Source of the DNA: Nordella sp. HKS 07
GTDB lineage: Bacteria > Pseudomonadota > Alphaproteobacteria > Rhizobiales > Aestuariivirgaceae
DNA length: 64,000 nt
NCBI RefSeq assembly: GCF_011046735.1
Contig: NZ_CP049258.1
Coordinates: 6,280,001-6,344,000 of the forward strand
Reading direction: 5' to 3'
Positions 5,793 to 37,208 of this stretch are shown here, piece by piece. The notes beneath the pieces were generated by a model. The model saw nothing but the letters and a program-made list of their open reading frames with translations, searched no databases and was not told the origin of the DNA. Each line of letters opens with the position of its first letter. The first letter of the stretch is position 1. Position numbers and translations under genes: made by a program.

Positions 5793-6842
5793 GAGCGTTT
5801 TCGTGATTGATGGAATCTGGGGGATTCTCAGGGGGAGGGTTTTCTGATTCCTTGTTCTTGTGGTTGATTCGGCACGAGGACCCCATGGGCAAGCCCTATT
5901 CCCAGGATTTACGTGATCGCGTGTTGGCGGCGGTTGACGGCGGGCTGAAGCCCGGCGCGGTGGCTGAGCTGTTTCATGTCGATGTGTCCTACGTCTATAA
6001 GATTCTGATCCGGCGTCGGACCAGCGGAATGACGACAGCGCTGCCGTGGGCTGGTGGTCCCCAGCCCAAGCTCAAGGGCCATCATGAAGTTCTACGCCAG
6101 CATGTGAGTGAGAACTGTGATGCCACGCTAGCGGAGATCCGGACCTTCTTACTGGCTGAGCATGGTATCGAGGTCAGTGTTGGTTGCCTTTGGAATGCTC
6201 TCAAGCAGTTGAAGCTGCCGCTCAAAAAAAGACACAACGCGCCACCGAGCAGGAGCGCGAAGACATCGCCGAAGCGCGCCGAGCCTGGCACGAGGCTCAG
6301 AGCGATCTAAACGCGGCGCGCCTTGTCTTCATCGATGAGACCGGCGCTCAAACTAACATGGCACGCCGCTATGGCCGCGCTCCCCGCGGACAGCGCCTGC
6401 TGTGCAAAGTCCCGTGGGGACATTGGAAAACGATAACCTTCGTCGCCGCTCTCAGATGCGACGGTATCACCGCACCTGCCGTCTTCGATGGTCCGATGGA
6501 TGGCGAGTGCTTCCGCGCCTATGTCGAACAGATCCTTGCGCCCACACTCTCAACCGGCGACATCGTCATCATGGACAATCTCGCCAGCCACAAGGTTCCC
6601 GGCATCAAGGATGCGATCGAAGCCGCCGGTGCTGCTCTGCGTTACCTGCCCCCTTACTCACCCGATCTCAACCCCATCGAGCAGGCAATCGCCAAGTTCA
6701 AATCACACCTGCGAAAGGAAGCTGCCCGTACTCTCGAAACCCTCATCCAGGCTATCGCCCGCACTCTCAACACCTTCACACTGAAAGAGTGCGAAAACTA
6801 TATCCGCGCCGCTGGCTATCGCCATCAACTATGAAAATGCTC
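5793..6842 (+). mobile_element. IS630-type insertion sequence
   Basis: A complete element of about 1,050 bases. The ends form imperfect inverted repeats: left GAGCGTTTTCGTGATTGATG at 5793 and, read on the opposite strand, GAGCATTTTCATAGTTGATG at the right end. Each end is flanked by TA (5791-5792 and 6843-6844), the target duplication typical of the IS630/Tc1-mariner superfamily. It carries one transposase gene in two frames. It landed in or next to an already decaying ABC-ATPase gene. Confidence 0.85.
5885..6834 (+). CDS. IS630 family transposase (needs -1 frameshift)
   Basis: The first frame starts at ATG 5885 (MGKPYSQDLRDRVLAAVD) and encodes the paired helix-turn-helix DNA-binding domain (LKPGAVAELFHVDVSYVYKIL, then TLAEIRTFLLAEHGIEVS). 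The second frame encodes the DDE catalytic domain: the first Asp in LVFIDETGAQTNM, the second in IVIMDNLASHK, and the final acidic residue in LPPYSPDLNPIEQAIAKFK. The frames join at a run of seven A then G (about 6223-6230), an A_AAA_AAG slippery site; a -1 slip gives LPLKKKTQRATEQE and a product of about 316 residues. The catalytic residues are intact, so the element may be active. Confidence 0.85.
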
Positions 6843-6958
6843 TAGTGCTTTCTTGCCGATATCGCACGCCCAGGGCACGGAGGGTTCCCCGGCAAGGAAC
6901 CTTTCCACTTTAGAGACGTTATGGTCGCGCATGCTCATTTCAATGCGAGGATAGACCA

Positions 6959-7414
6959 TTGGCAAAAGCTAAGAGAGCGCGCCGGCCGCGCCCGGCGGCC
7001 GAGCGTAAAAGCACTGCAAACCGCCTCTTCGACGACGCGCTGTCGCTGGCATCGACGCTGGCCGACAGCCGCAAACGCGCCGGCGCTGACAGGATCGTGG
7101 AATTCGCCGAGGCGACCCGTCATTTCGGAGAGACTCTCGACGACTTCCCGCAGCTTCGCGCCTATAGCGACACGGCCGCCGACAACCTCGACGATCTTGC
7201 CGACTATGTCGTCAGGACGGATATTCCGGAAATGCTGGATGACTTCGCAAGCTTTGCGCGCCGGCAGCCGGTCGCCACTCTGACGCTCGGCGTTGCCGCC
7301 GGCCTCGCCGTCACTCAATTGATGCATGGCTGGCCGGTTCCGATGAAGGAACGGGGCAAGTCCTCCGCCGGACGCGGCAAACGGCGAAGAGCGCTGCGCA
7401 AGGCTGCAAACTAG
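6959..7414 (+). CDS. Small membrane-associated stress-type protein
   Basis: A 151-residue protein with a Lys/Arg/Pro-rich N terminus, an acidic amphipathic middle (EFAEATRHFGETLDDFPQLRAYSDTAADNLDDLADYVV) and one hydrophobic segment near the C terminus (PVATLTLGVAAGLAVTQLMHG), then a very basic tail. The layout resembles ElaB/YqjD/DUF883-like proteins and rhizobial 'nutrient deprivation-induced' proteins that tether to the inner membrane. The start is TTG 6959 with GAGG upstream. It is the first gene of a four-gene operon (6959-8560). Confidence 0.6.
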   Translation: MAKAKRARRPRPAAERKSTANRLFDDALSLASTLADSRKRAGADRIVEFAEATRHFGETLDDFPQLRAYSDTAADNLDDLADYVVRTDIPEMLDDFASFARRQPVATLTLGVAAGLAVTQLMHGWPVPMKERGKSSAGRGKRRRALRKAAN

Positions 7415-11690: not shown

Positions 11691-12449
11691 CTAACGCTGC
11701 GGCCGCCTGACCACCCGCTCGATCTCCTCGCGCACCAGGCGCTCGACGAGCTTTGGCAGATTCTCATCCAGCCACTGCTTGAGCATGCCGCGCAGAAGCT
11801 CCTGGGCGATATCCGCGATCGGACGATCCCCCAGTGCCCGCCTTGTGATTGTCTCAGCCAGTTGGGCAAAGGCGGCCTGGGTAGCGGAACTGGTGCTTTC
11901 GGACATGAGCCCGGATTCGAGGGCGAAATCCGTAGCTTCCTCGGCAATCACCGCCGGCGCTGGCGCTGGCGGCAGAAAGCGCGGCGGATCGAGCTCCCGC
12001 AGGGACGGATAGGCCTCAGATTCAGGTTCAGGCTCCGGCTCCACATACTCGGCAGCCTGGGCGCCGAAGTAGCCATCATAAGAATATTGGTCCTGGTCAT
12101 CCGGCAGGACCGGTTCGGGCAGCACGGGATCAGGGCGCCGGAGCCGCGTCTCATAAGAAGACGCCCGCTCGCGGAAGGCAGTCATGGTCTCTTCCCGGCG
12201 TCCGCCCAATATGCCGGCGAAGCCCTGGGGCTGGGACTGCTGAGATGCCGTGGTGGAAGAATAATCGTAGCTCCGCCGCGCCCGATTGTCAGGACGCGCC
12301 GGCGGGGGTTCGACTCTTCCCCTGAGGTCGGCCATGGCATCGCCAAACCGGTCGGAAGAAGCAGCGGCGGCATTTTCATCAATGGCGCGTCGGATGGAGG
12401 CAAGCACATCTTCCATCCGGGGCTCGGCCGGTTTCTGCCCGTGCTTCAT
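11691..12449 (-). CDS. popZ: PopZ-type cell-pole organising protein (DUF2497)
   Basis: A 252-residue protein with the bipartite PopZ layout. The N-terminal helix (EPRMEDVLASIRRAIDE) is the partner-binding region, the long middle is low-complexity and rich in Pro and acidic residues (about 45-165), and the C-terminal helices (TITRRALGDRPIADIAQELLRGMLKQWLDENLPKLVERLVREEIERV) drive oligomerisation. PopZ forms polar microdomains that anchor chromosome-partition and cell-cycle proteins. The position directly between valS and tolC is the standard Hyphomicrobiales arrangement. Confidence 0.9.
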   Translation of the reverse strand: MKHGQKPAEPRMEDVLASIRRAIDENAAAASSDRFGDAMADLRGRVEPPPARPDNRARRSYDYSSTTASQQSQPQGFAGILGGRREETMTAFRERASSYETRLRRPDPVLPEPVLPDDQDQYSYDGYFGAQAAEYVEPEPEPESEAYPSLRELDPPRFLPPAPAPAVIAEEATDFALESGLMSESTSSATQAAFAQLAETITRRALGDRPIADIAQELLRGMLKQWLDENLPKLVERLVREEIERVVRRPQR

Positions 12450-12577
12450 TGAAATAGGTCCTGTCGCCGCGACTCTCTAGCGCCACTATGGCCCGCAAGA
12501 TCGCCTAAATCGATCCCGCTTGCAAATGACAGGCCGAGTTAACCACAAGAACGTGATGGGCCCGACCGGCGAAAACC

Positions 12578-13957
12578 TCAGTCGATGGTCTTGACGCCCG
12601 TACCGAACCATTTGTTGCGGACCCGGTCGTAATTCTCGATCGGATCGTAATAGTCGACGCCGAGGCCGATCTGGCGGGCGGTAAGCCTGCCGACGGATCC
12701 AAGGATCTGATAGGCGGCGACGACCTGGTCGCGCTCGGCCTGGGCCAGGATGATTTCGGATTGCAGCAGATCGGATTCGGCGTTCAGCACGTCGAGCGTC
12801 GTGCGTGAGCCGACCAGGTTCTCCTGCTTCACGCCGTCGAGAGCGACTTGGTTCGCGGTGACCTGCGCCTGGGAGGACACGATGGTCTCGCGCGCCGCAA
12901 TCAAGAGATTCCAGGACGTCACCACCGATTCGCGCACGGCCCGCGCGGCGCTGATGATCTCGATGCGGCGCTGGCTTTCCACCTGCTTGGCCTCGCGCAC
13001 CGCCGAATAGACGCTGCCGGCCTCATAAAGCGGAACATTAATGCTTCCTATGAGGGCGAGCCGCTGGGTATTGTTGTCCGCAAAGTGATCGAGATCATCG
13101 ACGGTCTTGGTGCCGCTCGCCTGCAGATTCACGCTCGGCAGGAGGTCGCCTCTGACCACACCGACATTGTGGCGCGCCGCCTCGGCAACGAAGGCGGCGT
13201 TCAGAATGTTGGGATTGATATTTTCGGCAAGCACCAAAGCCGCATCGAGATTCGACGGCAGCTTGGGCAATTTGGGATATTTGAGCGTGCCCGGCGAATG
13301 GCCGACGACCCGGTTGTAGTTGGCCACGCTCGAGGCGAGATTGGACTTGGCCGCCGCCACCGTCGATTGCGAAAGCGCCAATTGCGCCTGCGCCTGCGAC
13401 ACGTCGGTCTTGGTCACCTCGCCGACATTGAAGCGCTCCTGGGTGGAGCGCAGTTGCTCCTGCAGGGTCTTCACATTGCGCTGCCGCAGCTGCAGCACAC
13501 GCCGGTCGCGGATCACATTCATATAGGCGGTAACGGCATCGAACAGCGTCTGCTGTTCGACCGCTAGGAGATTTTGCCGGCCAGCTTCGACGACCGCCTC
13601 GGCCTGCTTGACACCCTCGACAGTCTTGAAGCCACGGAAGATCGGCTGGCTCAGCGTGATGGCGAGGTCGCCCGGACGCCTCGATTCCCATTCGCCGGGA
13701 TTGGGTTTTTGTAAGGTATCGACGAAACCACTGCTGGCCTGGGCATCGACCGTCGGCCGCCATCCGGACAGGGCCTGTGGCGTCGCCTCGTCCGTCGCGC
13801 GCTGGCGGGCCCGCTCGGCCCGCAAGGTTGGATTGCCCGAATAGGCGCTCGCCAGCGCCTCCGACAAATTCTCGGCATTCGCGGTCACAGACGAGAACAT
13901 TAAGGGAACGACGAATGCCCCGACCATTCCCCACGCACTAAGTCGCTTAAACCCCAT
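12578..13957 (-). CDS. tolC: TolC family outer-membrane channel
   Basis: A protein of about 459 residues with a signal peptide (cleavage near SSVTANA) and the two-fold repeated TolC fold: long coiled-coil helices (QLRQRNVKTLQEQLRSTQERFNVGEVTKTDVSQAQAQLALSQS and its echo near residue 385, QVALDGVKQENLVGSRTTLDVLNAESDLLQSE). It forms the trimeric outer-membrane tunnel for type I secretion and RND efflux. The ATG at 13957 gives a compact signal peptide; a GTG at 13972 is an alternative. It is upstream of popZ on the same strand and downstream of the isoaspartate methyltransferase gene. Confidence 0.92.
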   Translation of the reverse strand: MGFKRLSAWGMVGAFVVPLMFSSVTANAENLSEALASAYSGNPTLRAERARQRATDEATPQALSGWRPTVDAQASSGFVDTLQKPNPGEWESRRPGDLAITLSQPIFRGFKTVEGVKQAEAVVEAGRQNLLAVEQQTLFDAVTAYMNVIRDRRVLQLRQRNVKTLQEQLRSTQERFNVGEVTKTDVSQAQAQLALSQSTVAAAKSNLASSVANYNRVVGHSPGTLKYPKLPKLPSNLDAALVLAENINPNILNAAFVAEAARHNVGVVRGDLLPSVNLQASGTKTVDDLDHFADNNTQRLALIGSINVPLYEAGSVYSAVREAKQVESQRRIEIISAARAVRESVVTSWNLLIAARETIVSSQAQVTANQVALDGVKQENLVGSRTTLDVLNAESDLLQSEIILAQAERDQVVAAYQILGSVGRLTARQIGLGVDYYDPIENYDRVRNKWFGTGVKTID

Positions 13958-28207: not shown

Positions 28208-30442
28208 ATGATGAAGAAGTTTCTGATGGCCGGCACGGCGAGTGCCCTCCTCGCTCTCACCGCTTTGCCTAATCTGGCCGAAGCCAAGACGCGCATGCTG
28301 TTGATCGGGGTGGCTGACTACAATGAGGACTCCGGCATCCGCGACCTTCTGGGGCCGCGCAACGACGTTTCGATAATGTGGCGCCTGTTCAAGTCGCGCG
28401 GCGTCGACCCCAAGGACATCACGGTGCTGAGCGACGGCATTCCGGAAGGCGCCGACTACCCGACCGTGAACGGCCCCGCGACGATCGAGAACATCCGCGC
28501 CGCTTTCGATCGCATCGCCAGCGAGTCCGGTCCGGATGACGATTTCATCTTCTACTATTCGGGCCACGGCACCCGCCAGCCGGATAACGATCCCGCGGCC
28601 GAGATCGAGCCCGAGGCCGATGGCTATGACCAGGTTCTGCTGCCGACTGACACCGGTGCCTATGATCCGACCGGCGGTGGCATCAAGAATGCACTGGTCG
28701 ATGACGAGCTCGGTAAAAAGATCGACGCCATCCGCGGCAACGGCACCTTCGTCTGGGCCATCATCGATTCCTGCAATTCCGGCACGGTGACGCGCGGCGA
28801 CAGCGTGACGAGGTCGATCGATCCGGCCGTTCTGGGCGTGCCCGACAAGCCCGCGTCGGCCAGCGCCACGCGCGGCGGCAGCCGCAAAGGCGCGCTCAGC
28901 ATGACCAACCAGAACGACCTGGTCGGCTTCTACGCCGTCGATGCCTTCGACGAGGCCATCGAGCGTCCCTTCACCGGCTACAATCTTCCGATGGTGGGCG
29001 ATGGCAAGACGCAGCGCATGGGCGTCTTCACCAACGCGCTCCATCATGCCTTGACCCAGGGCACGGCGCAGACCTTTGCCGATCTGGCGCGAGAGATCTC
29101 AGCCGATCTGCAGACCGACCGTTCCGGCGGACGCGTGCCGCAGCCGGTCTTCGATGGCGTGCTTGACCGCCCCCTCCCCGGCACAGCCAACAAGGGCCCG
29201 CGCCTCATCACCTCGATCATCACCGACGAGACGGTGGCGGTGCCGCAGGGCGTGCTGCATGGTTTCGAGGAAGGCTCGAAGGTCGAACTCTATGCGCCGG
29301 GCAAGAGCGATGCACCGATCGGCAAGGCCGAAATCGTAAGCGCCGAGGCCGCTTCAAGCCAGGCCGGCAACATCGCCTGGACGGAAGGCGCGGAGAAGAT
29401 CGCCTCGGGGCCGATCGCGGTCAGGCTCGCCGAGCAGGCGGTGAGCTTCCGCTATGCCGTGTCGCCGCCGCCCGCGGAAGATCTCAAGGCGGGGGCCGCT
29501 TCCGAGACGGTGACGAAGGCCATCGATCTCGCTTTCGGCAAGGAGTCGGGCTCGGCCGAGATCGGCATCGCCTTGGGCGAGCCGGGAAATCCGGACGGCG
29601 ACGTGTTGCTGCGCGCCCAGAATGGGCGGCTGTGGATCATGCGGCCCGATCGTCCCTTCGACACCAAGGCCGGCAGCTTCGGCGAAACGCCGAGCGTCGA
29701 GATCGGCGATGACGCGCAAGCGCTTGCCGAAAAAGTGAAGCAGGCCGTGTGGTCGCTGTCGCGCGCCGAGAAGCTGATCCGCTTCGCCTCCTCGGTCGGC
29801 TCCTCGCAGGATCCCAACACCGACCGGCCGGAGATCACCGCCACCATCGCACGCAAAGGCGACAAGAGCAGCGATCCCGCCGGCGCCTGCGCCAAGCCCG
29901 ACAAGAACGCACAGGGCAAGCCGCTCGCCGCCTTCTCTCCTCAAGGGGTGGGCAATTGCGACACGGTGCGCTTCAAGGTCACCAATGAGACGGACCAGAC
30001 CTACTATATCGCGGCCTTCTATGTAGACGCGTTGGGTGGCGTGATGCCGCTGTCGAGTCAGGATCGTGCCCGCGGCTGCGTGCGCACGCTCTATTCAGGA
30101 TCTGGCGAGGTCACCTATACGATCCAGATCAATACTTGGGACGCACAGAACAAGCGTCCCGCCGCGGTCGGCACCGAGAATGCGGTGATCCTCGCCATCC
30201 CCCAGGATGCCTCCAAGATCGCCCCCAGCATGTGCTCGCTGATCCAGCCGACCTTGTCGGCGATGCAGCAGACCAGGAATGTCGAGGAGACTGCGACCCG
30301 TGGCTCGGCCCAGCGCAAGTCGCTCAAGAATCTGCTCGGCGGTATTACCGGCTCGGCTACGCGCGCGGCGACGATCGAGGAAGACGAAGGCGGTGGCCCG
30401 GCTATGACGTCGAGCCTGTTCACCTTCGATGTGCGGCCGTGA
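28208..30442 (+). CDS. Secreted caspase-family (C14, orthocaspase-like) protease
   Basis: A 744-residue protein with a signal peptide (MMKKFLMAGTASALLALTALPNLAEA). The caspase fold covers about residues 28-340: TRMLLIGVADYNE, the catalytic His120 in FIFYYSGHGTRQ and Cys189 in WAIIDSCNSGTV, with acidic specificity-pocket residues nearby. A linker follows, and the C-terminal region from about residue 590 (CDTVRFKVTNETDQTYYIAAFYVDALGGVMPLSS) resembles DUF4384. Both catalytic residues are intact, so an active periplasmic or extracellular Arg/Lys-specific protease is expected. The start at 28208 is set by the signal peptide. It is monocistronic, followed by a mosaic repeat. Confidence 0.85.
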   Translation: MMKKFLMAGTASALLALTALPNLAEAKTRMLLIGVADYNEDSGIRDLLGPRNDVSIMWRLFKSRGVDPKDITVLSDGIPEGADYPTVNGPATIENIRAAFDRIASESGPDDDFIFYYSGHGTRQPDNDPAAEIEPEADGYDQVLLPTDTGAYDPTGGGIKNALVDDELGKKIDAIRGNGTFVWAIIDSCNSGTVTRGDSVTRSIDPAVLGVPDKPASASATRGGSRKGALSMTNQNDLVGFYAVDAFDEAIERPFTGYNLPMVGDGKTQRMGVFTNALHHALTQGTAQTFADLAREISADLQTDRSGGRVPQPVFDGVLDRPLPGTANKGPRLITSIITDETVAVPQGVLHGFEEGSKVELYAPGKSDAPIGKAEIVSAEAASSQAGNIAWTEGAEKIASGPIAVRLAEQAVSFRYAVSPPPAEDLKAGAASETVTKAIDLAFGKESGSAEIGIALGEPGNPDGDVLLRAQNGRLWIMRPDRPFDTKAGSFGETPSVEIGDDAQALAEKVKQAVWSLSRAEKLIRFASSVGSSQDPNTDRPEITATIARKGDKSSDPAGACAKPDKNAQGKPLAAFSPQGVGNCDTVRFKVTNETDQTYYIAAFYVDALGGVMPLSSQDRARGCVRTLYSGSGEVTYTIQINTWDAQNKRPAAVGTENAVILAIPQDASKIAPSMCSLIQPTLSAMQQTRNVEETATRGSAQRKSLKNLLGGITGSATRAATIEEDEGGGPAMTSSLFTFDVRP

Positions 30443-30469
30443 TGATGAGCGCGCGACCGGCCCCGCTCC

Positions 30470-30583
30470 TAGCGCGGGATGCGAAAAAGTGGTTACCGGT
30501 TTTTCGCAAATATCCCGCGCTAATATATAGGAATAGATCACGTTTATGAGTTTGGATTGATTCAATCCAAACTCATCGTGATC
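30470..30583. repeat. RIME-like mosaic palindromic repeat, copy 1
   Basis: It is made of two palindromes. The first (30470-30522) starts TAGCGCGGGAT and ends ATCCCGCGCTA with GCGAAAAA...TTTTTCGC inside around an AAGTGGTTACCGGTTTTT core. The second (30536-30583) is GATCACG...CGTGATC enclosing ATGAGTTTGGATTGA and its complement. The core matches rhizobial intergenic mosaic elements (RIME type). A second copy is at 59013-59118. Confidence 0.75.
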
Positions 30584-30613
30584 TGGTCCGATCGCGCGCC
30601 AGTTCTGCCTGCG

Positions 30614-31324
30614 TCAGTTCAGATTGAAGTTGCGCTGTACGATCGGCGCTTTGGGCTTCATCTTTTCCTGACGCGGTTCCTCACGCGCTTCGAGCCGGGG
30701 TGCTGCCCTTTCCGGCTGCTTGCGACCACCCTGCTTCACGACAACCTGCGCTCCCGGTTTGACCCGCTCATAGAGATCGGCGACATCCGCATTGAGCAGC
30801 CGGATGCATCCCGACGAGACCGCTCTGCCGATCGAACGCGGATCGGCGGTGCCGTGGATGCGATAGAGCGTGTCGACCTTGCCCTGGAACAGATAAAGCG
30901 CCCGGGCGCCCAACGGATTGGTCGGCCCGCCCGGCATGCCGTTGGCCCATTTGGCGGCCGCCGGATCGCGCTTGACCATCTTGGCCGGCGGCGTCCAGCG
31001 CGGCCATTTCGCCTTCCACCGTACATCCGCCCGGCCCGACCAGGAAAAGCCCTGGCGGCCGATGCCGATCCCGTAGCGCAAGGCCTCGCCATTCGGCTGG
31101 ACGAGGTAGAGGTATCGGTTGGCGGTATCGACCACGATGGTGCCGGGCTTCTCCGGTCCCGAATAGCTGACCGCCTGGCGCCTGAACTTCTCCGGCACCC
31201 GATCGACATCCGCTTCGTCGATCGGAAACTGCTCGGCCGGATGCGAGATCGCGAGCGCGCCCGGCGCGGCGAGGGCGCAAGCACCGAAGAGAGTCGTGAG
31301 TCTGAGGATCTGCCGGCGATTCAT
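30614..31324 (-). CDS. L,D-transpeptidase (YkuD domain)
   Basis: A 236-residue protein with a twin-arginine-like or Sec signal (MNRRQILRLTTLFGACALAAPGALA) and a YkuD catalytic domain. The signature is YRIHGTADPRSIGRAVSSGCIRLLNADVADLYERV, with catalytic His and Cys in HGT and SSGCIR. It crosslinks peptidoglycan stems 3-3 or anchors proteins. A long Arg/Pro/Glu-rich C-terminal tail (about residues 200-236) is not part of the domain. It is convergent with the caspase gene across the RIME-like repeat. Confidence 0.92.
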   Translation of the reverse strand: MNRRQILRLTTLFGACALAAPGALAISHPAEQFPIDEADVDRVPEKFRRQAVSYSGPEKPGTIVVDTANRYLYLVQPNGEALRYGIGIGRQGFSWSGRADVRWKAKWPRWTPPAKMVKRDPAAAKWANGMPGGPTNPLGARALYLFQGKVDTLYRIHGTADPRSIGRAVSSGCIRLLNADVADLYERVKPGAQVVVKQGGRKQPERAAPRLEAREEPRQEKMKPKAPIVQRNFNLN

Positions 31325-31635
31325 GAGGTACCTTGAAGTTGATTCATTTGCCTCTGAACTAGCTGGAATAGATTCAAGAGTCTTTATCGCCGGCTCTCAA
31401 AAGACATATTCACAACGATTTGATTTTTCGCGATTTTTACGTGTGGAGAACGCGTTTCATTGATCACTCCAGGCCGGCTGGAGGCGACAGGGAGTTCACT
31501 CGCAGTTCTGAGGCGCGACAGCTCATTCGGGCAATTCGGCAACATGCTTTACCTGCGAAACTGCGGCAATGCTCCGGGCGATATGCCTCAGCGTAAACCT
31601 GGTGTATAGTGGGGGCTCTCGGTGTGGAGGACAGC
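31325..31635. other. Divergent intergenic region
   Basis: 311 bases between the L,D-transpeptidase gene and the NTF2-like gene, which are transcribed away from each other. It is A/T-richer near 31380-31440 and must hold both promoters. I see no clear operator, riboswitch or coding frame. Confidence 0.5.
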
Positions 31636-32538
31636 ATGGCGACCAGGATCGTGAACGACCTCAGGTCCCACTACCGGGCCTGGGGCCGTGGCAAGGGAAC
31701 AACCAGCGAGCGCTTCATTGAACTGTTGACGGACGATGCGACTTTCCGGTCGATCGGCGGCGGCGCCAACCTCATGGAGTTCACGCGCACACATAGGACC
31801 AAGGATGATGTCCGCGCCTATTTTGCCGGGCTGGCGCGGGATTGGGAAATGCTCTTCTACAATGTCAGCACCTTCCTGGTGCAGAACGGCACCGTCGCCG
31901 TCATGTGCGAATGCGCCTGGAAGCACAAGCAAACCGGCAAGACCGTTCATACGCCGAAACTCGACGTCATCCGCATCAAAGACGGCAAGATCGCCGACTT
32001 TTTCGAGTTCTTCGACAACCACCAGGCGGCGGCCGCCTGCCGCGCCGAAGGCGAATGCACGGTGCCCGCCGATCCGAAGCCTTTCAATGGCCAAGGCCAG
32101 TCGCGGCTTGAAACCGAAGTGACGGTCGCCACCCGCGCCAATGTGAATGCGCTCAAGCACCTCTACGCCCAGTATGCCAAGACAAAGGGAGCCAGCATCC
32201 AATCGATCCTGGAGCTCCTGGCACCGAATGTCGTCTGGGGGTCGCTGTCCGCAGGGACCTATCCCCTCGCCTTCTCCCGCACACACCGAAGCCGCGAAGA
32301 GGTCGCCGAGTATTTCCGCGGACTCTCCGAGGCCTTCACGATGAACTATTACGATGTGAGGGAGTATGTCGCCGCCGGCCCCTATGTGCTGGCTCTCAGC
32401 GAAATCTCGTTCACCAACAAGAAAACCGGCAAGACCTTCGTTTCACCCAAGGCCGATTTCTGGCGCTTCGCCGGCGGCAAGGCGGTGGAGTTCTACGAAT
32501 TCTTCGACACCGCCGCAGTGATGGCGAGCGCGGCATAG
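31636..32538 (+). CDS. Tandem NTF2-like (SnoaL) domain protein
   Basis: A 300-residue protein built of two homologous SnoaL/NTF2-like domains (about residues 1-130 and 155-295). Both halves share FIELLTDDATF / ILELLAPNVVW, FTRTHRTKDDVRAYF / FSRTHRSREEVAEYF, the KTGKT strand and FFEFFDNH / FYEFFDT. NTF2-like folds bind small hydrophobic ligands or act as isomerases. No signal peptide is seen, so it is cytoplasmic. GGAGGAC lies just before ATG 31636. The function is unknown. Confidence 0.78.
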   Translation: MATRIVNDLRSHYRAWGRGKGTTSERFIELLTDDATFRSIGGGANLMEFTRTHRTKDDVRAYFAGLARDWEMLFYNVSTFLVQNGTVAVMCECAWKHKQTGKTVHTPKLDVIRIKDGKIADFFEFFDNHQAAAACRAEGECTVPADPKPFNGQGQSRLETEVTVATRANVNALKHLYAQYAKTKGASIQSILELLAPNVVWGSLSAGTYPLAFSRTHRSREEVAEYFRGLSEAFTMNYYDVREYVAAGPYVLALSEISFTNKKTGKTFVSPKADFWRFAGGKAVEFYEFFDTAAVMASAA

Positions 32539-33173
32539 GACTTCGGCGCGCGAAATTTACGTGGCGACATCCGCCAGCAGACTTGTTACTGGCCGACTTT
32601 GCCAATTAACTTCGCCGGACCTTTTGCAGCTAATGTCCGGCAACTGCTTCTCCCGGGGCGGAGCTTTCTTGGCCATATCGATGTGAGCTCTGGGATCACC
32701 TAATCCCTTGTTTGTATTCTCGGGGCGTTGATGTGTCCCTGTTCCGCCAAGGCCCAATCGTGTTGTGCGCTCAACGGCACGCAATACTCCGGCCGCATTC
32801 AATAGCCGGCCATGGATGGTCTGTATATTCGCCGGCCGTGAGAGAGCCCCGGGCGATTGACCAGCAGCTCCATCGCCAGATGCCGTGCTGGTTTGTGCGG
32901 CACTCTCGAGGATATTACCCTCATCCTTCTTTTTCCACGCGCGTAGCAAAGCTTGCACGAATTCACGGATTATTCGGAGGCCGAGAGCCATTCGGTTGAT
33001 CCTTTTATCGGAGTTCGGATAGAGGAGCCTGTTCGGTCAGACCCAGGAGTTGACGTCCGAACGCAACTCCTCAACTTGATATTTCCAAAATCCTGCCATC
33101 TGGCCCACGATGTCAAGCGCCCACCATCGCGTCGGGAAGATACGGATATAACCCAGCCTAATCTCAGCACTCT
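32539..33173. other. 635-base stretch without a supported gene
   Basis: A minus-strand frame at 32557-32991 (144 codons, MALGLRIIREFVQALLRAWKKK start) has an AAGGAT site but no recognisable family and low coding quality. I do not call it. No other feature is apparent. Confidence 0.35.
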
Positions 33174-34025
33174 CTAACGCACCCTCGGCAGCCAGCCTTT
33201 CTCGAGAGCCGCGATGAGGCCCGCCGTCATTTCATTCCGCGGCAGCGCCCGCAGCTGGCGCAACGCCTCGAAGCGCCAGGCGCCATTGTCGCGCCCGGCG
33301 AGCCACACGGCGGCGACCTCACCCTGGTTCTCGCGCGCCTTGATCTTGTCCGGCACATTCGGCAACGCCTTGCGCAGTTCGAAGGCGATGCGCAGGCGGT
33401 TTTTCCTGGCATCGGTGATGGTCACGGCAAATCTGCTGCCGCTTATCGCATCGGCGGCGATCGTGACCTCGCGCGTGTCCTGGGCGACGGGTTTGCCGTC
33501 CCCGATCTTCACCGTGAAGGGCCCCTCCCCGCCCGTCCAGGCGAGATGCACGGGCTCGGCACTCCGGATAATGTAGTTGCGGCCGCGCACCGCCAGCGGC
33601 ACCTTGATCGCGTCACCGCCTTTCGACACCAGAACGGAGAATGAATCATCTTCGCTGTCGCCGATGAGGATGCTGACGATCTGTTCGATGATGCTGAAGG
33701 AATCGTCACCGCTCGCCATCTCGCCCGTGACGTCCTTGCGCATGAGCTTGCCGGTGACGATGAGGCTCCCTTCGCCAGCCAGGCTCAGTACGACCCTGCT
33801 CTCCTCATCTCGAATGAAGACGGAATCGCCGTCGTAGACCGGCATCAGCAATTTCGGCGCGAGTTCTGCCCCTTTGCGTACGACGACGGTGCGCTTTTCG
33901 GCGTCCACGCCTTTCAGCTCATAGGCCATGATATAGCCGGCTGGCCGGACATCCTGGGCCTGCGCCGGCGTGATGTCGGCGGCGAAGCTCAGCGCGGTCA
34001 GAAGAACGACGAGAAGGCGCAGCAC
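33174..34025 (-). CDS. Periplasmic FecR-like protein
   Basis: A 283-residue protein with a signal peptide (MLRLLVVLLTALSFAADITPAQAQ). The mature part starts with a short beta sandwich (VVVRKGAELAPKLLMPVYDGDSVFIRDEESRVVLSLAGEGSLIVTG) that resembles FecR-type sensors; a beta-rich domain (VPLAVRGRNYIIRSAEPVHLAWTGGEGPFTVKIGDG) follows. GTG 34025 has GGGAG upstream and begins 10 bases after the CHASE2 stop, so the two are translationally coupled. It probably works with the CHASE2 sensor in the periplasm. Confidence 0.65.
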   Translation of the reverse strand: MLRLLVVLLTALSFAADITPAQAQDVRPAGYIMAYELKGVDAEKRTVVVRKGAELAPKLLMPVYDGDSVFIRDEESRVVLSLAGEGSLIVTGKLMRKDVTGEMASGDDSFSIIEQIVSILIGDSEDDSFSVLVSKGGDAIKVPLAVRGRNYIIRSAEPVHLAWTGGEGPFTVKIGDGKPVAQDTREVTIAADAISGSRFAVTITDARKNRLRIAFELRKALPNVPDKIKARENQGEVAAVWLAGRDNGAWRFEALRQLRALPRNEMTAGLIAALEKGWLPRVR

Positions 34026-34035
34026 GATCAGCTCC

Positions 34036-35412
34036 CTAATGCGTCTTGAGCATGGAGCGCCAGCCTTTGCCGTGGCTCCAGTCGTAGACGATCCCGGCCA
34101 GTGAATCGAAAAATTTGTGAAGGATGAACAGAGTGAGCGTCACCGCGATGATGCGAATGGCGACCTCGAAGCCGAACAGGCGCGACAGCACCAGCGCTGC
34201 CGCGACCGTGATGAGGCCGGCGATAAGGACCGAGGGCGCCAGCTGGAAATTATAGGAGATGAAAGCCAGCACCGCGAAGATGGAGACGGCGATGAGAATC
34301 TCCACCAAGGGCGAGGCCCCCGGCATGGTGGCCATGGCGGAAGCGGCGGCTACGGTGTTCGCCAGGATCACCGCGCCCGGCTGCGATCCAAGCGGCGTCG
34401 CATAGATATCGTGGGAATTGGCATGGGTGACGCCGATGATCACGATACGGTTCTTGAAGGCCTCCGGATGAATCTCGCCCGCCGCCGAGGCCTGGCCGGC
34501 TTCGAAGCGCACCAGGGCCCAGGCAGGAATCTGATTGAACACCGCCACCTGGCTGTCTCCGTCCGCGATGGTTTTGGCGCTCGCTTCTTCGGTCTCGGCG
34601 TTGAACATATACTGGATGGCGACATCGGAGGAGAGGCGATGCGGCCAGGCGCTCGGCGCCGCGTCGAGGCGCTTGCAGCGCCGGTCGACCTGCTCGGCGA
34701 GGAAGTGCTTGAGCTCGTCGGAGCGGTCGCCCCCGGTATCGAATTTGGCGGCGACGACGAGCGCCGGCGACGGATAGGTCACACCATCGGCGCCCTCGCA
34801 CAAGGTCTGCCAGAGCCGCAGGCGCCGGACGATGCGGTCGGCAGAGAGCGGCGTCAGCACGCTCACCCAGATGGCCTTGCCCGACTGCGCGAAGATGCCG
34901 TCATATGGCGTCGAATTGGCCACGGTGGGGGTGCGCTCGAGCTCTTCGCCGCTGACACTACCGGCGCGAAAGCTGCGCACGAACATCAGCGGCGGATCGG
35001 TCAAGGTGGATGCGCTGATCGCTTCGACGAGGGCGGGATCGGCCGGTGTCGTTGCATCCTCCGGCGCAAGGTCGATATCGACGACGACAGCGCGCGCTCC
35101 GCCCGCTTCCGCGATCCGGATCAACTCCGCGAGAGCGGCGTGCGGGGTTATCGGCGGACCGCCCCAATTCGCCATGGTCTCGTCGTCGACCTTGATCAGC
35201 GTGACGGGCAGAGAATTCTTGGCGACGCCCGAAAGCGCCGCCGAGATCTCAATGATGCGGTCGGTCTCGGTGAAGCTCTTATAGGCCGCGGTGATACTTT
35301 TGCCGCCGCCCAGCAAGGTCAGCAGCGCCACCAGCACCGCTGTGAGGATCGCCCATAGCCAGCGTGGCCAGTTTCGCAATGCCCGTGCCTTCGTCACAAA
35401 GCTGCCCGTCAT
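34036..35412 (-). CDS. CHASE2 domain protein without an output domain
   Basis: A 458-residue membrane protein. One N-terminal transmembrane helix (WLWAILTAVLVALLTLLGGG) is followed by a large periplasmic CHASE2 sensor (about residues 45-345: LPVTLIKVDDETMANWGGPP, ARAVVVDIDLA, FKNRIVIIGVTHANSHDIYATPLG, PGAVILANTVA), then three C-terminal helices and a short cytosolic tail (YDWSHGKGWRSMLKTH). CHASE2 proteins normally end in adenylate cyclase, kinase or phosphatase domains; none is present. Middle gene of a three-gene operon. Confidence 0.85.
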   Translation of the reverse strand: MTGSFVTKARALRNWPRWLWAILTAVLVALLTLLGGGKSITAAYKSFTETDRIIEISAALSGVAKNSLPVTLIKVDDETMANWGGPPITPHAALAELIRIAEAGGARAVVVDIDLAPEDATTPADPALVEAISASTLTDPPLMFVRSFRAGSVSGEELERTPTVANSTPYDGIFAQSGKAIWVSVLTPLSADRIVRRLRLWQTLCEGADGVTYPSPALVVAAKFDTGGDRSDELKHFLAEQVDRRCKRLDAAPSAWPHRLSSDVAIQYMFNAETEEASAKTIADGDSQVAVFNQIPAWALVRFEAGQASAAGEIHPEAFKNRIVIIGVTHANSHDIYATPLGSQPGAVILANTVAAASAMATMPGASPLVEILIAVSIFAVLAFISYNFQLAPSVLIAGLITVAAALVLSRLFGFEVAIRIIAVTLTLFILHKFFDSLAGIVYDWSHGKGWRSMLKTH

Positions 35413-35445
35413 GTGCCGGCAATCGCCTCAACCTTCGAGCAGGAT

Positions 35446-35473
35446 CCGGACCGGCAATTTCCTGCCGGTCCGG
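35446..35473. repeat. Hairpin between metalloprotease and CHASE2 genes
   Basis: CCGGACCGGCA, loop ATTTCC, TGCCGGTCCGG: an 11-bp perfect stem in the 77-base gap. It could set the transcript ratio between the abundant secreted protease and the sensor. No T-run is adjacent. Confidence 0.6.
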
Positions 35474-35489
35474 CTTCATGCGTCAGTTA

Positions 35490-36518
35490 TCAATCCTCTT
35501 CGGCCGGATCGTCCTTGGTGCCCGGACGGTCGAAGAAAGCCTTGACCGCGTCGAACATGACACCCTTGGTCGTCGCCTCGTCGCCCTTCTTCCAGATCGC
35601 CTCAAACTTCTCCTTGTTCTCCTGGAAGTTCTCGAGACGGGACGCCGCGTTGGCCGGATACATCTGCGCGGCAAGAGCACGGTCGCCCGCCGAAATCTGC
35701 GAATTGGGCTCCGCCACGAAGCACTTGCTCTTGGCGCCCTTCTTGTAGAAATCGGGCGGGAACTGATAGAGCATGACCGAGCGCTTATCGAACTTGGTCA
35801 GTTGCAGGTCCTCGCCCGAGGCCTGGCGCAGGTTCCAGTCGATCGTCTCCTTCGTCCAGTTGTTCGGCGGCCCTTCGAGATAGCTGTAGATGAGCTTCCA
35901 GTTATACTCGTTGTCGCAGCCGCCCTTCGGGTTCTGGTGCTCGTGTTCGATGCCGAGCGCATGGCCGAATTCGTGGCGGATGGTGCCGACCTCATAGTCC
36001 GAGAGTTGGTCGGGCGACACATTCATGAAGCCGCCGAGATTGAGCGTGGCCTCCTTCTGGTCGACGAAGACCACGGCGTTCTGGCCGAGCTGCGACCAGT
36101 AGCCGTCCTGGCTGAAGGACACGCGGATCTGCATCTCCCTGCCGTTTTCCGGCTGGCAGGTGCGCCGCTTGCCGGGCTTGCCGAAATCGAAACGGATCGA
36201 ATTGTCCTCTGCCTGCCACTCCTTGGCGACATTGGCGACCACTTCGCGCAACGCCTGGCTGCCTTCGAAGAAGCACACGCGGATCTTGGGATAGTTGGCG
36301 CCCCACAGCGTGCTGTTGCGGTAGATGCCCTTGGACTGCTCCGAATCGTCGAGCTTGTTGAGCGCCGACTGATACTGCTTGATGCGCTTGATGTATTTTT
36401 CCGGCAATCCGTCGCGCGCGACCTTGTTGCCGTCCTCGGCCGCCATCGCGCCTGAGGCCGCAGCGACGGCCATCACCGACGCCATCAAAACCGATTTAGA
36501 AAAACCTAACGCCGCCAT
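35490..36518 (-). CDS. Secreted astacin/matrixin-like zinc metalloprotease
   Basis: A 342-residue protein with a signal peptide (MAALGFSKSVLMASVMAVAAASGAMAA). The metzincin zinc site HEFGHALGIEHEHQ begins at residue 182 (HExxHxxGxxH plus a Glu as in astacins), and the Met-turn SVMLYQFP follows near residue 247. VCFFEGSQALREVVANVAKEWQ and GREMQIRVSFSQDGYWSQLG are typical of bacterial matrixin/astacin-like proteins. AAGGAG lies before the ATG. It is first in the operon with CHASE2 and the FecR-like gene. Confidence 0.88.
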   Translation of the reverse strand: MAALGFSKSVLMASVMAVAAASGAMAAEDGNKVARDGLPEKYIKRIKQYQSALNKLDDSEQSKGIYRNSTLWGANYPKIRVCFFEGSQALREVVANVAKEWQAEDNSIRFDFGKPGKRRTCQPENGREMQIRVSFSQDGYWSQLGQNAVVFVDQKEATLNLGGFMNVSPDQLSDYEVGTIRHEFGHALGIEHEHQNPKGGCDNEYNWKLIYSYLEGPPNNWTKETIDWNLRQASGEDLQLTKFDKRSVMLYQFPPDFYKKGAKSKCFVAEPNSQISAGDRALAAQMYPANAASRLENFQENKEKFEAIWKKGDEATTKGVMFDAVKAFFDRPGTKDDPAEED

Positions 36519-36971: not shown

Positions 36972-37208
36972 ATGGAGATGCGCGACATAGAATCCTGCTT
37001 GCCGCCGAAGCTTCACTCCTTCAGCCGGCAAGTGCTGGAGATCTATCTTCATGGCCATATGAGCACGGCGGAATTCCGCCGCTGGTTTCACATGCCCAAT
37101 TCCGACTATCTGATGCTCGGCGACTGCATCGCCCAGAAGGTCGATCCGCACTACATTCCGGAAGCCAAGCTGCCGCCATCCATCACCCTGCGGCCCAACA
37201 TGTTCTGA
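36972..37208 (+). CDS. Small hypothetical protein
   Basis: A 78-residue protein (MEMRDIESCLPPKLHSFSRQVLEIYLHGHMSTAEFRRWFHMPNSDYLMLGDCIAQ). It has balanced composition and good coding character, no signal peptide or membrane segment, and two Cys. I do not recognise it. The ribosome site is weak. It ends 267 bases before cysK. Confidence 0.45.
   Translation: MEMRDIESCLPPKLHSFSRQVLEIYLHGHMSTAEFRRWFHMPNSDYLMLGDCIAQKVDPHYIPEAKLPPSITLRPNMF

Follow-up and report, generated by a model that had tools for sequence, protein, structure and literature searches.

The window, a 64,000-nucleotide stretch of the genome of the soil bacterium Nordella sp. HKS 07, carries two secreted proteases of different kinds close to a membrane sensor, which raises the question of whether these genes act together or only lie side by side. 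The sequence-only reading had placed a caspase-family protease about 3 kb from a metzincin-CHASE2-FecR trio and had suggested a regulated envelope proteolysis or signalling system. All of the genes it named were found where it had placed them. The caspase-fold peptidase (28208..30442, plus strand, 744 aa) scored 68.6 bits against Peptidase_C14 (cut-off 21.4) and begins with a signal-peptide-like N-terminus as judged by eye, consistent with the secreted protease that had been claimed. His120 and Cys189 are both present, as reported, so that with a score above the cut-off the protein has the features of a PF00656 catalytic domain. Profile comparison matched its fold to metacaspase-1 (7qp0; E 1e-12), and the C-terminal 414 aa of the window protein matched no Pfam family at E ≤ 10.

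The distance from the caspase gene to the nearest gene of the trio, which encodes the secreted partner protein (33174..34025, minus strand, 283 aa; "FecR-like" in the sequence-only reading), was 2.7 kb. The partner gene, the CHASE2 gene (34036..35412, minus strand, 458 aa) and the metzincin gene (35490..36518, minus strand, 342 aa) share one strand with gaps of 10 bp and 77 bp, respectively, which agrees with the three-gene set described before. An L,D-transpeptidase gene (YkuD, 83.4 bits; 30614..31324, minus strand) lies between caspase and trio, as had been noted. A gene for a double SnoaL-domain protein (31636..32538, plus strand), absent from that earlier description, lies there as well. 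Of the four module-carrying genomes in the genus, three have these two genes in between. In two genomes of the family the caspase gene is directly convergent with the CHASE2/partner pair (3 and 9 bp apart), an arrangement in which the L,D-transpeptidase and SnoaL genes appear to have been inserted later; each is probably outside the module core. Comparison with three relatives of the genus gave dN/dS values of 0.10–0.17 for the metzincin, 0.10–0.15 for the caspase, 0.13–0.22 for CHASE2 and 0.28–0.31 for the partner gene, and all four are therefore under purifying selection. With 13 Peptidase_C14 or CHAT matches in the genome of the window, a random position has a 1.6% chance of falling within 5 kb of one.

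The CHASE2 assignment was borne out at 81.5 bits (Pfam cut-off 26.3). Hydropathy placed the domain between transmembrane helices, one at residues 19–37 and three at 369–430, as expected of PF05226. Pfam detected CHASE2 alone in the window protein, and the approximately 28 residues after the last helix hold no cytoplasmic output domain. The partner protein is secreted, judging from its N-terminus. The FecR label did not survive: the window protein matched no Pfam family at E ≤ 1, PF04773 was found in none of six members scanned, and with a genuine FecR of this genome as a one-sequence template, hhalign gave a probability of 2.6% (E 0.018). FecR was also absent among the 50 fold-search matches listed for the partner, which came from a weak structure model (pLDDT 64). 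That model, together with weak profile matches for the Ig-like part, weakly predicts an Ig-like middle domain and a helical C-terminus.

Of the 69 genomes surveyed in the window's family, 7 carry the CHASE2/partner pair, and in all seven a caspase gene lay beside it; the metzincin was not constant. No trio without a nearby caspase was seen in this or in other families. The caspase does occur without the pair, at three loci of the family (L056–L058) and 18 further loci read across the order. CHASE2 or partner was seen in none of these 21 stretches, which count as "lone" on the caspase tree and of which 6 are shorter than 10 kb. All module loci of the family lie at one chromosomal site, and the seven are thus not independent. 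Those of family f1, where read to that side, adjoin the same cysteine-synthase gene and two other conserved genes. By eye these two neighbors are AlaX-like and rhodanese-like. The shared flank, and the separate occurrence of caspase and metzincin elsewhere, would fit genes that are neighbors by descent at a common site and have no joint function.

The survey across the order speaks against such simple co-inheritance. CHASE2 was detected at E ≤ 5e-117 in 10 of 397 genomes, the next genome scoring 2e-12, and each of the ten loci also encodes the partner and either a caspase or a CHAT protein. The ten genomes fall into five families with four gene orders. The adjoining peptidase is a caspase in f1, f12 and f27, a WD40-caspase in f2, and a TPR-CHAT protein in f16 and on a Rhizobium plasmid; it is exchanged between lineages. 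The His and Cys motifs were kept in 23 of 23 clan-CD proteins examined at module loci, and the peptidases and partners inspected there have signal-peptide-like N-termini. On the caspase tree, 13 module rows among 34 required five label changes, and partner caspases are not monophyletic. Among 37 control CHASE2 loci, two had a caspase domain (Fisher p = 1.3e-8 versus 10/10), the controls being every lower-scoring CHASE2 genome with an ORF above 600 aa, whose output domain is assumed from ORF length. CHAT and partner were each found in 0 of 37 control stretches of 12–20 kb, the HMMs for partner, caspase and CHAT having had the module loci as their training set. Counted by family, the first 33 controls gave 5/5 versus 1/14 (p = 5e-4); the remaining four, one of them with a caspase, come from two families already sampled, including the one with the earlier caspase match. 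Chance grouping is rejected on the order survey and the control loci. Set against the four gene orders, the swapped peptidase, the tree and the scarcity of caspases in controls, neighborhood by descent alone is largely contradicted already, and we regard it as very improbable.

Several loci define the edges of these counts. The 39 genomes below the top ten comprise the 37 controls and two short-ORF cases (G300 and G077). One genome with partner and caspase (G220, locus L124) was left out of the ten, its contig ending before CHASE2, and profile A5 combines eight of the ten order matches (all but G193 and G079) with three members of the family. Among low-scoring short-ORF CHASE2 loci, L186, in an already counted genome, had CHASE2, partner and caspase, and L184 and L185, near contig ends, had neither partner nor caspase. 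A plasmid search with the window CHASE2 returned one Rhizobium plasmid, and one with the CHASE2 of L117 returned no match. A class sample of 385 genomes added a single match (G497), with neither partner nor peptidase in the 20 kb read. Two caspases also lie within 5 kb of a further CHASE2 gene of the genome that holds the window, one whose C-terminus looks cyclase-like by eye; together with the two control loci, this means that caspase linkage is not exclusive to output-less CHASE2 proteins. The constant gene pair is shown to be CHASE2 and the secreted partner, and the core is this pair with a clan-CD peptidase, not the metzincin trio. The proposal of regulated envelope proteolysis or signalling thus stood as to a real, non-random grouping and was revised as to its core, the joint function being what we infer. 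That the locus encodes a functional module appears highly probable.

How the core would work is suggested by the form of CHASE2. Because this protein has no kinase, cyclase or other cytoplasmic domain, we propose a periplasmic relay: the CHASE2/partner pair would sense an envelope or extracellular signal and, to relay it, recruit or unlock the caspase on the periplasmic side of the membrane. We consider a relay from the pair to the caspase reasonably probable. Proteases beside membrane sensors commonly trim or shed them, and the caspase or metzincin could instead act on CHASE2 or its partner, the output being an unlinked intracellular regulator. The short CHASE2 tail, in which Trp-Arg and one Lys are kept in 7 of 7 family members, is compatible with this. 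A transmembrane segment plus tail offers little to release, however, and no recurrent regulator gene was noticed beside the module when gene maps were read by eye. Sensor trimming strikes us as unlikely.

The metzincin belongs to the version of the module found in the window's family. Its identity as a secreted metzincin was upheld by HEFGHALGIEHEH and the Met-turn SVMLY; the Pfam Astacin score (PF01400) was 22.0 bits, just below the cut-off of 22.5, and the family profile matched myroilysin at E 4e-27. In alignment A3, which included 14 of 15 long matches, HExxHxxGxxHE and the Met-turn SxMxY were found in the window protein and 11 of 13 relatives, the other two having lost the catalytic Glu. 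A structure model (pLDDT 46) was not used. Position 63 is Lys or Arg in all 14 family members aligned. The pro-myroilysin chain 5gwd (252 aa) is 39 aa longer than chain 5zjk (213 aa), and residue 39 of pro-myroilysin, an Arg, aligns with this column. Column 63 thus seems to be the pro/mature boundary, as in myroilysin, the nearest solved relative. Myroilysin (M12A; PDB 5gwd, 5zjk, 5czw) shares with the window protein its catalytic core by profile and, apparently, this boundary. The cysteine switch reported for myroilysin, as given in excerpts of PMC9848320, is a point of difference: the pro-segment of the window protein has no Cys between signal peptide and first Trp, and a conserved Asp/Glu is present instead. 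The three aligned metzincins with a Cys before the first Trp all carry it in the signal-peptide stretch.

Excerpts of PMC6426788 state that orthocaspases cleave after positively charged residues, and by analogy the window caspase is expected to cut after Lys or Arg. The conserved Lys/Arg63 would suit a caspase of basic specificity. In the window's family, the caspase would remove the metzincin pro-segment between Lys63 (codon 36330..36332, minus strand; proposed zymogen cleavage site) and Gly64, and a small signal could thereby yield strong envelope proteolysis, used for regulated remodelling, self-killing or attack. The metzincins of G006, G023 and G047 keep Lys/Arg63 though no caspase adjoins, and G023 has no caspase at E ≤ 1e-5; another protease, or the metzincin itself, may therefore cut there. 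A caspase-to-metzincin cascade is offered as doubtful but conceivable.

The metzincin might also be a nutritional protease, secreted and acting independently of the module, whose only tie to it is the shared operon. It occurs without CHASE2 in G005, G006 and G023, and its tandem copies differ in number. No degraded copies were detected in the window, where tblastn with four paralogues matched one gene only. A strong hairpin (12-bp stem, 35446..35473, minus strand) parts metzincin from CHASE2 here and in some other loci and may uncouple their expression. As a conserved element the hairpin was rejected, the fold beating shuffles in only 3 of 6 loci. Against independence, the metzincin adjoins CHASE2 in 6 of 7 family genomes with the pair (in G047 it is on a separate contig from the module), and metzincin-caspase neighbors recur in other settings, at L188 in family f50, as does an M12-caspase-trypsin set on a Bradyrhizobium plasmid. 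Module loci read outside the family gave no metzincin match; a trypsin is present in another lineage. We judge an independent metzincin somewhat improbable.

Parts of the arrangement are known from other systems, compared here through excerpts of the cited sources. Burkholderia BiofilmReg operons of FecR and CHASE2 histidine kinase (PMC5192318) likewise set a CHASE2 sensor beside a secreted protein with predicted periplasmic input. That CHASE2 protein has PAS and histidine kinase domains with a response regulator, and its partner has LysM and FecR domains, whereas the window CHASE2 lacks an output domain and the window partner lacks a FecR match and adjoins a clan-CD peptidase. A Trichodesmium CHASE2-caspase fusion, its caspase predicted to be cytoplasmic (PMC3501461, PMC2853523), and EACC2-caspase-CHASE2 proteins (PMC8195603) join CHASE2 receptor and caspase in one protein; in the window they are separate proteins, the caspase has a predicted signal peptide and would lie on the CHASE2-domain side, and there is a third partner. 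EACC1-caspase membrane conflict systems (PMC7159879) share a membrane component beside a caspase with a variable effector, but the window relay is predicted to lie outside the cytoplasm and its further protease is a separate gene. Metacaspases and orthocaspases have the same fold by profile and the His/Cys dyad, unlike them the window caspase being predicted to be secreted with a long C-terminal region outside any Pfam family.

The EACC1 logic, as excerpted from PMC7159879, also suggests an outward-facing counterpart of the EACC1/EACC2 systems, serving suicide or defence against invaders, in which envelope damage triggers lethal proteolysis. Such damage could come from a phage or competitor and trigger the caspase. 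The clan-CD peptidase, the exchangeable metzincin or trypsin and the patchy spread are in keeping with this, as are two of four plasmid neighborhoods in which an M12 peptidase lies beside a TIR gene, or beside caspase and trypsin genes. The EACC1-associated caspase model NF047832, however, gave 34.5 bits against a cut-off of 140, and of four proteins scanned with PADLOC the caspase alone matched, to a generic caspase model. We hold this outward suicide system to be rather unlikely.

As an explanation of the whole, we lean slightly toward an envelope-facing protease module in which a sensing pair acts on the caspase and the caspase on the metzincin. More speculatively, and with little confidence, it may belong to a family of extracytoplasmic caspase systems in which CHASE2 and partner activate a swappable caspase or CHAT protein and then a zymogen, metzincin here and trypsin elsewhere. 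A search of open-licence full-text literature found no description of CHASE2 with FecR and caspase, of CHASE2 with a CHAT domain, or of FecR with metacaspase; the module, real as a grouping and predicted in its function, is on this basis apparently undescribed.

The recurrent pairing of secreted bacterial caspases with output-less CHASE2 proteins, the peptidase being swapped between caspase and CHAT types, offers each of the two a testable partner. An output-less sensor beside a predicted extracytoplasmic caspase, here with a second protease, suggests a protease-based envelope alarm system. The locus offers a candidate bacterial caspase cascade of the envelope and, if the proposal is true, this would be an inflammasome-like protease cascade wholly outside the inner membrane.

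The genome carrying the window is a single contig of 7.18 Mb. Gene calling and domain scanning placed a caspase-fold protein of 744 aa at 28208-30442 on the plus strand, and a metzincin (342 aa), a CHASE2 protein (458 aa) and a secreted protein (283 aa), in that order, at 36518-33174 on the minus strand, with intergenic gaps of 77 and 10 bp. An L,D-transpeptidase gene and a gene with a double SnoaL domain separate the caspase from the three-gene set; the grouping described in the sequence-only reading, transpeptidase included, was thus located at 28208-36518. Catalytic residues were kept in both proteases, as that reading had held for the caspase, and all four genes were under purifying selection. 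The third protein, previously called FecR-like, was not FecR in any test made, and this identity was rejected; profile matches, and fold matches from a weak structure model, weakly suggest an Ig-like middle domain. In the CHASE2 protein, hydropathy places transmembrane helices at 19-37 and 369-430 (one plus three), about 28 residues follow the last of them, and a Pfam scan detected CHASE2 alone, leaving it without a cytoplasmic output domain. Named relatives of the CHASE2 protein came from Rhizobiales bacterium Y(2018), Aestuariivirga sp. YIM B02566 and Taklimakanibacter lacteus, and genomes G054, G055 and G056 belong to the same genus as the window. A 78-aa ORF at 36972-37208 (+) had no match in a Pfam scan, showed full-length 92% identity to its counterpart in locus L054, and by eye had counterparts at the equivalent place in G006, G047, G054 and G055.

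All four proteins served as queries against 69 genomes of the family. The metzincin matched in 10 genomes, CHASE2 in seven, the third protein (hereafter the partner) in the same seven, and the caspase in nine, one of them weakly. The caspase gene adjoined the CHASE2/partner pair in all seven CHASE2-bearing genomes, and this part of the proposed block of caspase and metzincin-CHASE2-FecR trio stood; the constancy of the metzincin did not, as it adjoined CHASE2 in six of the seven and lay on a different contig in G047. In G014 and G037, the caspase was convergent with the pair across gaps of 3 and 9 bp, and in G047 the gap was 363 bp. Given these short distances, the SnoaL and L,D-transpeptidase genes look like insertions in the four module-bearing genomes of the window's genus, where a gap of 1.9-2.7 kb is filled by SnoaL genes and, in three of the four, also by the transpeptidase. 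Some loci held additional caspase-domain genes: G055 had a WD40-caspase and G047 the end of another, and G014 and G037 encoded more secreted caspase-domain proteins, 745-780 aa long. One cysteine-synthase gene adjoins the module loci throughout, so the seven loci are not independent. Several L,D-transpeptidase-like genes, recognized by eye, lay close to a second caspase copy in G047 (L058:197-6104), recalling the proximity of the two in the window.

A profile built from the seven family CHASE2 proteins was searched against 397 genomes of the order, of which 10 scored below 1e-10. After the profile was widened with eight of these 10 hit genomes, none excluded on account of its neighbors, the repeated search returned the same 10 at E<=5e-117, the next-best genome being at 2e-12. 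All 10 high-scoring loci contained the partner gene together with a clan-CD peptidase, the order and family samples each being part of their group. Family f12 (four genomes) carried partner, caspase and CHASE2 in one direction; f2 (two genomes) carried the pair divergent from a WD40-caspase; f16 carried it convergent with a TPR-CHAT protein; and the two f1 genomes in the order sample were arranged as in the window. In f27, CHASE2, partner and caspase were tightly packed into one operon, preceded by a CHAT gene and followed by a trypsin. At L115, a secreted trypsin and a CHAT protein (6295-7407 and 12182-13915) lay on either side of a CHASE2-partner-caspase operon. On a Rhizobium plasmid, consecutive genes encoded CHASE2, the partner and a CHAT protein of 1299 aa; the plasmid's CHASE2 gene was broken into two overlapping reading frames (L148:8878-10175).

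Controls were all 37 lower-scoring genomes with a CHASE2 ORF >600 aa, whose output domains were assumed from length. Within the 12-20 kb read at each, a caspase domain was found in two of the 37 (L193 and L228, both family f35), and CHAT and the partner in none. With neighbor HMMs trained on the module loci themselves, linkage differed by genome (Fisher p 1.3e-8) and by family with the first 33 controls (5/5 vs. 1/14, p=5e-4). Three low-scoring CHASE2 loci had short ORFs: L186, from a genome already counted, contained CHASE2, partner and caspase, and L184 and L185, near contig ends, showed neither partner nor caspase. The window's own genome had two caspase genes within 5 kb of a CHASE2 gene with, by eye, a cyclase-like end (L145:3252-9567), and caspase linkage may therefore also hold for certain CHASE2 proteins that have an output domain. 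In that genome, too, a 560-aa protein with an FSGHG motif, above cut-off for no family in a Pfam scan, was encoded next to genes for a CHASE2 and a DUF6603 protein (L144:10216-11898).

The closest solved relative of the window metzincin was myroilysin. Its chains comprise 252 residues in 5gwd, described in the available part of PMC9848320 as the zymogen, and 213 in 5zjk, which is probably the mature form named in the title of Ran et al. 2020, listed among that paper's references; the difference of 39 would place the cut after residue 39. This residue, Arg, occupied the same alignment column as Lys63 of the window metzincin; that column alternated between Lys and Arg in all 14 aligned family metzincins, each with an acidic residue three positions before. 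Since orthocaspases are described as cleaving after basic residues (PMC6426788, in part), the caspase is a candidate activator, which by analogy would cut the pro-metzincin after Lys63. Against this, the Lys/Arg site was also kept in G006, G023 and G047, where the metzincin has no adjoining caspase. The catalytic Glu was lost in two of the 14; tandem metzincin paralogues next to active copies (L052:16438-17406, L053:15699-16637) were pseudo-proteases in which HQ or HS stood at the site of this Glu and the Met-turn had no Tyr.

A metzincin profile gave four matches outside the family besides the window's among 140 genomes of the order, and a caspase immediately followed only one, in G153 of the distant family f50 (L188:7700-9600), where both genes by eye lacked a signal peptide. 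Among four neighborhoods read from 15 plasmid hits, L227 (NZ_CP096257.1, Bradyrhizobium) had genes for an M12 metallopeptidase, a caspase and a trypsin-like protein in direct succession, the last of them very long. On L224 (NZ_CP020372.1), an M12 metallopeptidase gene lay directly upstream of a TIR-domain gene amid toxin-antitoxin genes.

Full-text searching of open-licence papers for combinations of CHASE2, FecR, caspase, CHAT and metacaspase returned nothing closer than four systems, each as described in the portions available. CHASE2 adjoining FecR proteins has been described, with a histidine kinase as output (PMC5192318), whereas the partner here is not FecR by any test. The CHASE2-caspase fusion of Trichodesmium has a caspase predicted to be cytoplasmic (PMC3501461, PMC2853523), whereas that of the window has a signal-peptide-like N-terminus. 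EACC2-caspase proteins have CHASE2 among their variable domains (PMC8195603), and EACC1 systems combine a TM component, a caspase and an effector (PMC7159879). We file the module as a caspase-based signaling variant outside all four. Signal-peptide-like N-termini were seen, by eye and hydropathy only, on the inspected caspases, CHAT proteins, partners and metzincin, from which we infer that the sensor signal would be handed on outside the inner membrane.

Caspase genes apart from the trio, half of the counter-case set out in the sequence-only reading, do occur: CHASE2 or partner was seen in none of the stretches read at 21 lone caspase loci. At seven of these (L126, L127, L129, L133, L135, L137 and L138), where neither was seen, a CHAT domain match lay within about 6 kb, and caspase-CHAT neighborhoods may be a broader pattern. 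A Pseudosulfitobacter plasmid (L149, NZ_CP087000.1) carried two caspases, a trypsin-like protein, a two-component system, a patatin and a CHAT protein in 20 kb. His and Cys motifs were intact in all 23 clan-CD proteins inspected at the surveyed loci. In a maximum-likelihood analysis of 34 caspases, 13 from modules and 21 others, the tree required five changes between module and other labels, some of them within f1, and some of its joins are unsure owing to long branches; the module caspases of f12, f1 and f27 were separate, with lone ones interspersed. Because of this tree, and of the WD40-caspase and CHAT partners, the CHASE2/partner pair is the constant element and the clan-CD peptidase the variable one, swapped between lineages. 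This exchange beside a constant pair is the strongest argument for joint function.
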